DNA from: Pseudomonadota bacterium
GTDB lineage: Bacteria; Pseudomonadota; Gammaproteobacteria; Acidithiobacillales; Acidithiobacillaceae
Length of the DNA stretch: 64,000 nt
Reading direction: 5' to 3'
Assembly (NCBI GenBank): GCA_021821885.1
Contig: JAKARO010000003.1
Coordinates: 62,001 to 126,000 of the forward strand
Shown: positions 54,619-54,966 of the stretch, piece by piece
Numbering within the stretch: the stretch's first letter is position 1
How the letters are laid out: each line of letters starts with the position of its first letter
Program-made: the position numbers and the translations under genes
The notes under the pieces: model-generated
Databases searched by the model: none
Told to the model about the DNA's origin: nothing
What the model saw: the letters and a program-made list of their open reading frames with translations, nothing else

Positions 54619-54924
54619 GGAGGCGTGGCAGAGTGGTTGATTGCACCGGTCTTGATCTATCGGGCCCGCACCGGGAAACCGGAGCGGTGGAAGGAATCAA
54701 ATTCGGCGAAGCCCCTGACCCAGTCGAGGTAACGCCGGGCCAAGCCGGAGAAGTCCGGAAGGTGTAGAGATCAGACGGTTCCCACCTAAGGCTGCCTGTT
54801 TGTAGCTAAGGTGAAGGCATGATCCAGACCCCAAATGCAGACGCAGTGGCGAAAGCCATGGAGGGTAAGGAAAACCGGCAGGGGTTCACGCCCCTCGTGA
54901 GTTCGAATCTCACCGCCTCCGCCA
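54619..54924 (+). tRNA. serT: tRNA-Ser (anticodon UGA), interrupted by an intron
   Basis: Exon 1 is 54619-54653 and exon 2 is 54870-54924. Joined, they give a complete class II serine tRNA. The acceptor arms are GGAGGCG (54619-54625) and CGCCTCC (54914-54920) with encoded CCA. The D stem is GCA/TGC and the anticodon stem CCGGT/ACCGG closes a loop CTTGAAA with anticodon UGA. A long variable arm and T arm GTGAG-TTCGAAT-CTCAC follow. It is needed to read UCA. The interruption lies after U34, between the first two bases of the anticodon. Confidence 0.95.
54654..54869 (+). ncRNA. Group I (IC3-like) self-splicing intron in tRNA-Ser(UGA)
   Basis: This 216-nt ORF-less insert carries the expected group I elements. 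The exon ends in U and the intron ends in G (54869). P1: exon CUU with guide GGG (54662-54664). P2: CCGC/GCGG then CCGG-GAAA-CCGG (54666-54687). P3: GGAATC (54693-54698) with GGTTCC (54777-54782). P4: CGGCG (54704-54708) with CGCCG (54733-54737). P5 and P6 are pairable. P7: GATCA (54769-54773) with TGATC (54820-54824). P8: CACCT...AGGTG. P9: TGGC-GAAA-GCCA (54847-54858). Segments such as CAAATTCGGCGAA and GAAGGTGTAGAGA recall the Azoarcus tRNA-Ile intron. Confidence 0.93.
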
Positions 54925-54932
54925 TTTTTGTG

Positions 54933-54966
54933 AGCAGAGCCCCAGGCATATTGGGGCTCTGCTTTT
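54933..54966 (+). terminator. Rho-independent terminator after tRNA-Ser(UGA)
   Basis: AGCAGAGCCCC (54933-54943) and GGGGCTCTGCT (54953-54963) form a perfect 11-bp stem with a 9-base loop, followed by TTT. It lies 9 bases after the encoded CCA and fits a terminator of the tRNA transcript. Confidence 0.85.

Follow-up and report, generated by a model that had tools for sequence, protein, structure and literature searches.

In this acid-loving bacterium, the one tRNA-Ser(UGA) gene that was found is almost certainly interrupted, directly after the wobble base U34, by a group I intron of IC3-like type, which is small, lacks an ORF and is kin to the introns of tRNA-Leu genes. Within the window (the whole 64,000-nucleotide stretch analysed), the two halves of the tRNA lie on the + strand at 54619-54653 and 54870-54924, with 216 bases between them. 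The 5' exon (35 nt) ends in CCGGTCTT, its last bases being C32-U33-U34, and the 3' exon (55 nt), which encodes the CCA, begins with G35-A36-A37. Once joined, the exons make a clean 90-nt tRNA that ARAGORN identifies as tRNA-Ser(tga). On the unspliced DNA the program finds no tRNA in default mode, and in intron mode it returns tRNA-Ser(tga) with a 216-nt intron. The 3' exon is 100% identical to the intact tRNA-Ser(UGA) of four species of the same genus, and the 5' exon is about 95% identical to the matching stretch of intact tRNAs in same-genus species. The intron itself (54654-54869, + strand) begins with GATC and ends with TAAG. Since GA forms the first two bases of the insert and of the 3' exon alike, the boundary can be slid by one or two nucleotides on sequence alone; it was placed after U34 because this is the sole option that leaves a U at the end of the 5' exon and a G at the end of the intron. 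The terminal G of the intron (omega-G, 54869) was thus located by the empty sites of relatives, with the U/G rule settling the slide. Directly downstream of the gene, a perfect hairpin (54932-54966, + strand, -26.8 kcal/mol) followed by TTTT is a likely transcription terminator, so that the tRNA gene appears to be a separate unit. A simple scan did not pick up this hairpin and returned no promoter for the gene either.

The sequence-only reading that preceded this analysis had called for a survey of tRNA-Ser(UGA) genes in relatives, and such a survey confirms the junction. In a search of 57 genomes (this one plus its relatives), the insert occupies the identical site in 16, our own included, and across the matching part of tRNA and insert the 15 other family genomes that carry it are 79-96% identical to the window. 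Eleven genomes of the same family have an uninterrupted tRNA-Ser(UGA), against which the match breaks into query positions 1-37 and 252-306. This break coincides with the proposed junction once the shared GA, which accounts for the two extra bases, is allowed for. A twelfth genome, G006, also has an intact tRNA-Ser(UGA). In G002, a member of the same genus, the intact tRNA (L018) adjoins similarity to the downstream gene, which encodes an NFACT-like protein, and the conservation of this neighbour identifies the site as an orthologous empty one. With 15 other family genomes sharing the site and 11 carrying the joined tRNA at the junction, the insert is not a chance arrangement.

Comparative evidence supports the assignment of the insert to the group I introns, and more precisely to the small bacterial tRNA type (IC3-like by host, size and architecture). 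Helices P1, P2, P3, P4, P5, P6, P6a, P7, P8 and P9 were named on the window and scored on 27 introns aligned with the model (26 with a tRNA-Ser host, one with tRNA-Leu(CAA) as host). The rows of this alignment are related, so that the counts are not independent events. Over P1-P9, 95.7% of the cells are standard pairs, as against 29-44% when the partners are slid. Double compensatory changes occur in 30 of the 55 pairs, pairs of P3 and of the P7 pseudoknot among them, and none of 500 shuffles was as good on any of five measures. P1 and P7 were absent from the aligning model, and support for these two helices is therefore not built in. By contrast with this comparative signal, thermodynamic folding alone is uninformative: the folding energy of the insert (single-sequence folding, z = -1.2) is not unusually stable.

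All the elements lie on the + strand. P1 consists of C32-U33-U34 on the exon side (54651-54653), with a U34-G pair at the splice site, and of the internal guide GGG (54662-54664; GAG in nearly all relatives), and it is paired in 27 of 27 introns. The proposed P10 bases, U-C, sit just before the guide at 54660-54661. P2 (54666-54687) is closed by a GAAA tetraloop (54675-54678) and has double changes in seven of its eight pairs. P3 joins GGAAUC (54693-54698) to GGUUCC (54777-54782), with 100% of its cells paired and double changes in four of six pairs, and P4 joins UUCGGC (54702-54707) to GCCGGG (54734-54739), 95% paired. P5, in which 54711-54713 pairs with 54728-54730, carries a short cap, so that the element spans 54711-54730; it lacks the P5abc extension, and like both strands of P3, P4 and P7 it was part of the pair count on the 27 introns. 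P6 and the P6a hairpin follow at 54740-54762 (98-100% paired, double changes in all five P6a pairs). P7, GAUCA (54769-54773) with UGAUC (54820-54824), closes the pseudoknot with P3; it is 100% paired, with double changes in three of five pairs, and its sequence is GAUCA/UGAUC in the Acidithiobacillus family versus GACUU/AAGUC in the other Ser introns. The P8 hairpin (54783-54813) is 90% paired. Finally, the P9 domain (54828-54866, 92-100% paired) comprises an outer stem ACCC/GGGU, a small extra hairpin (54836-54845) and P9 proper (54846-54859) with its GAAA loop (54851-54854). The insert thus has the P3-P9 core with P7 pseudoknotted to P3, a P1 with the splice-site U-G, and the terminal G of a group I intron, together with the anticodon-loop tRNA host, small size, absence of P5abc and GNRA loops on P2 and P9 of the IC3 type. 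The sequence-only reading had described a perfect tRNA-Ser(UGA) split by 54654-54869 after U34, an exon ending in U, an intron ending in G, and helices P1 to P9 that could all be drawn, including P3 GGAAUC/GGUUCC and P7 GAUCA/UGAUC. Its coordinates and sequence are exact and agree with ARAGORN, its terminal bases are borne out by the boundary after U34, and its helices are present and backed by covariation.

From the gene halves, the junction, the covarying structure, the homology and the empty sites, we infer how transcription, catalysis and splicing in vivo would proceed. The pre-tRNA would be transcribed as its own short unit, and the intron would fold into the group I core. The guide, GGG in this intron and GAG in its relatives, would then pair with C32-U33-U34 to form P1, placing the U-G pair at the splice site. 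A guanosine bound in P7 would attack after U34, and the freed U34 would in turn attack after the terminal G, while the U-C before the guide would hold G35-A36 as P10. Joining of the exons would yield tRNA-Ser(UGA), the reader of UCA.

The bases around the guide show how the junction is tied to the anticodon. The guide GAG pairs with C32-U33-U34, and is replaced by GGG in the window and in the sister L077. The two bases 5' of the guide are UC in 25 of 25 sampled Ser introns, fitting G35-A36. In nearly all aligned introns whose tRNA-Leu 3' exon begins AAAATC they are instead UU, fitting A35-A36, the exception being L112, whose 5' end is misplaced in the model alignment. In one tRNA-Arg(UCU) intron (L119), UUAG precedes the guide and the 3' exon reads CUAA. 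This tracking of the host anticodon by UC or UU is the behaviour expected of P10. In the window, the GGG guide places two U-G pairs side by side in P1 and permits a competing P1 register of 5 bp, GGUCU/GGGCC, at -3.1 versus -0.3 kcal/mol (nearest-neighbour rules, outside the ribozyme context). The competing register puts U33 at the splice site, so that cutting would take place after U33 and the resulting tRNA would lack U34. In relatives with GAG, a C-A mismatch interrupts this register.

When 84,980 species genomes were scanned for the core plus the Ser exon, 30 contigs were returned, 29 of which hold real tRNA-Ser(UGA) introns: 11 in the Acidithiobacillus family and 18 elsewhere. Acidithiobacillus ferrivorans and A. 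ferriphilus are carriers that have been cultivated. The carriers elsewhere include Achromobacter aloeverae, Giesbergeria anulus, Allopusillimonas soli, Pusillimonas, Propionivibrio, Sulfuritalea, Methyloversatilis and a Steroidobacteraceae bin. The remaining contig, L069, was rejected, since its match lies next to a partial tRNA and is due to chance. The exons in two bins assigned to Acidobacteriaceae (L082) and Mycobacteriaceae (L083) look proteobacterial, and these sequences may have been binned wrongly. The phage collection contained no match to the intron, and the only match among plasmids was a 52-base core match in Mycetohabitans. A contig from a viral collection, IMGVR_UViG_3300048865_000014 (L220), has phage-like genes and carries at its end (8.3-8.8 kb) an intron-bearing tRNA-Ser(UGA) near a tRNA-Leu(UAA). 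This end is probably host DNA flanking a prophage.

In the intron tree, the Ser introns stay grouped, no more than two host-label changes being needed, tRNA-Leu introns are nearest (with weak deep support), and the intron subgroups follow the host groups. On the family's GroEL tree four state changes suffice, and G009, the deepest of the branches sampled, carries the intron. One genome, G025, gave two partial GroEL matches and looks like a mixed bin. A recent horizontal gain, in place of old vertical inheritance with losses, would alter only the history of the intron and does not conflict with the mechanism. Its absence from most species of the same genus and the minimum of four state changes on the GroEL tree speak for such a gain. 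We nevertheless regard it as unlikely, given that the deepest branch sampled has the intron and that subgroups track host groups. This distribution suits an ancient presence of the intron followed by precise losses.

Whether the cell depends on splicing hinges on other copies of the tRNA. Ser(UGA) is missing from the ARAGORN list for this genome (a 91%-complete assembly), in which the only serine anticodons are GCT, GGA and CGA. No intact UGA anticodon arm was seen in this genome, G022 or G013 among matches that differ from the expected arm at no more than two positions, and there is no intact Ser(UGA) among the class II tRNAs listed for the near-complete G022 and G013. By standard decoding rules, the UCA codon needs tRNA-Ser(UGA). 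Because no second copy was found, splicing is probably essential in this genome, as far as a 91%-complete assembly can indicate. A second intact tRNA-Ser(UGA) had been proposed beforehand as evidence against the splicing model; none turned up among the matches examined in these three genomes, but G019, a complete one-contig genome of the Acidithiobacillus family, has an extra intact Ser(UGA) alongside its intron-bearing gene. In that genome, the locus C1:1026500-1037000 (L148) packs 34 tRNA genes, the intact Ser(UGA) included, into 10 kb.

The copy in the G019 array bears on another explanation, namely that the insert is a decayed group I intron which no longer splices, stranded in a dead tRNA gene while UCA is read by another tRNA. 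Here and in L077 the guide has changed to GGG from the GAG of relatives; this opens the wrong P1 register and also points that way. Decay is nonetheless very improbable: every core helix is intact, the tRNA obtained by joining the exons is perfect, no second Ser(UGA) was found here, and the 96% identical sister L077 is in the same state, which is hence persistent. A functional intron that splices the tRNA remains by far the better reading.

At its curated cut-off, Rfam gave no group I match on the window, and RF00028 found none on 500 bases around the intron with E values up to 10. The absence of a covariance-model hit, which would have counted against a group I intron, is therefore literally the outcome for RF00028, but it is a false negative. 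The 15 Ser introns of the family alignment align well, and a search of 369 genomes of the class with the model built from them, R1, gave matches in 59. R1 finds tRNA-Leu(UAA) and tRNA-Arg introns with E values down to about 1e-45. The matches inspected, with exons read by eye, are mostly in tRNA-Leu(UAA), and also in tRNA-Leu(CAA), tRNA-Arg, tRNA-Ile(CAU) and tRNA-Lys(UUU). Several of these kin, of the Leu, Arg and Ile types, are recognised by RF00028 at or above its cut-off of 50 bits (L098, 51; L100, 50; L105, 69; L106, 55), whereas the homologous tRNA-Leu(CAA) intron reaches only 26 bits. RF00028 likewise misses or under-scores a series of small proteobacterial tRNA introns (window 54654-54869; L001, L003, L014, L028, L101 and L151), and surveys based on it consequently undercount them. 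An insert of another kind (a transposon remnant, a group II intron or an assembly error), for which this Rfam silence might be invoked, has a negligible probability in view of the identical site in 29 named genome records, the covarying group I core and the kinship with group I introns that Rfam recognises.

In the reviews and tool papers covered, the hosts named for such introns are tRNA-Leu, tRNA-fMet, tRNA-Ile and others in cyanobacteria (PMC4033280, PMC8450103, PMC5733544, PMC3984707). No bacterial tRNA-Ser group I intron was met in this full-text literature search, and tRNA-Ser(UGA) is provisionally regarded as an undescribed host. The suggestion of a new intron location thus holds for the literature searched, but the location is not unique, since 29 named records have it. 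tRNA-Ser(UGA) is apparently a new and recurrent host for a known intron class, and no fewer than 28 further bacterial genomes have the same insertion. The tRNA-Lys(UUU) gene is not named as a proteobacterial host in the reviews covered; like introns are seen near U36 of apparent tRNA-Lys(UUU) genes in L120 (1501-1771, - strand) and L159.

Among known systems, the tRNA-Leu introns are closest: as in the Ser intron, they follow U34, have the guide GAG on C32-U33-U34, share the core and are nearest in the tree. They differ in having UU before the guide for A35A36, while the Ser introns have UC for G35A36 and tRNA-Ser(UGA) as host. The tRNA-Ile(CAU) IC3 intron of Azoarcus, which we take to be small, free of ORF and P5abc, and capped by GNRA on P2 and P9, presumably has a very similar core. 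It differs from the window intron in host and guide, and probably in the base pairs of P3 and P7, presumably GGUGUC/GGCACC and GACUA/UAGUC in Azoarcus. The bacterial tRNA-Arg(CCU), tRNA-Ile(CAU) and tRNA-fMet introns are also group I introns of the anticodon loop, and R1 matches the Arg and Ile cases, but their hosts are different and, in the cases read, so are their positions (after U36 or after U33). Several variants of such introns stand out. The tRNA-Leu(CAA) intron (L099; L028 594-839, - strand) has a 5' exon apparently ending in C34, giving a C-G and not a U-G at the splice site. tRNA-Arg(UCU) introns lie after U34 in L119, L154, L156 and L164. In L157 and L160, two partial R1 matches a few hundred bases apart within one tRNA-Leu(UAA) gene suggest a large insertion inside the intron.

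On balance, we lean slightly towards a view in which tRNA-Ser(UGA) is an undescribed but widespread bacterial group I host that was reached from tRNA-Leu(UAA) by a guide-base switch, through the shared C-U-U target in the anticodon loop, which would have permitted insertion, and a single-base change of P10 from U-U to U-C, which would have adapted the intron to its new anticodon. A tRNA-Leu intron would then be the ancestor of the Ser introns. With this finding the bacterial hosts of self-splicing introns come to include a serine tRNA. It accounts for the failure of a standard tRNA caller to report tRNA-Ser(UGA) in carrier genomes. It also provides a natural series (with and without the intron, guide GAG or GGG, Ser versus Leu) for tests of how introns move between tRNAs, and of how cells cope when an essential tRNA relies on a ribozyme.
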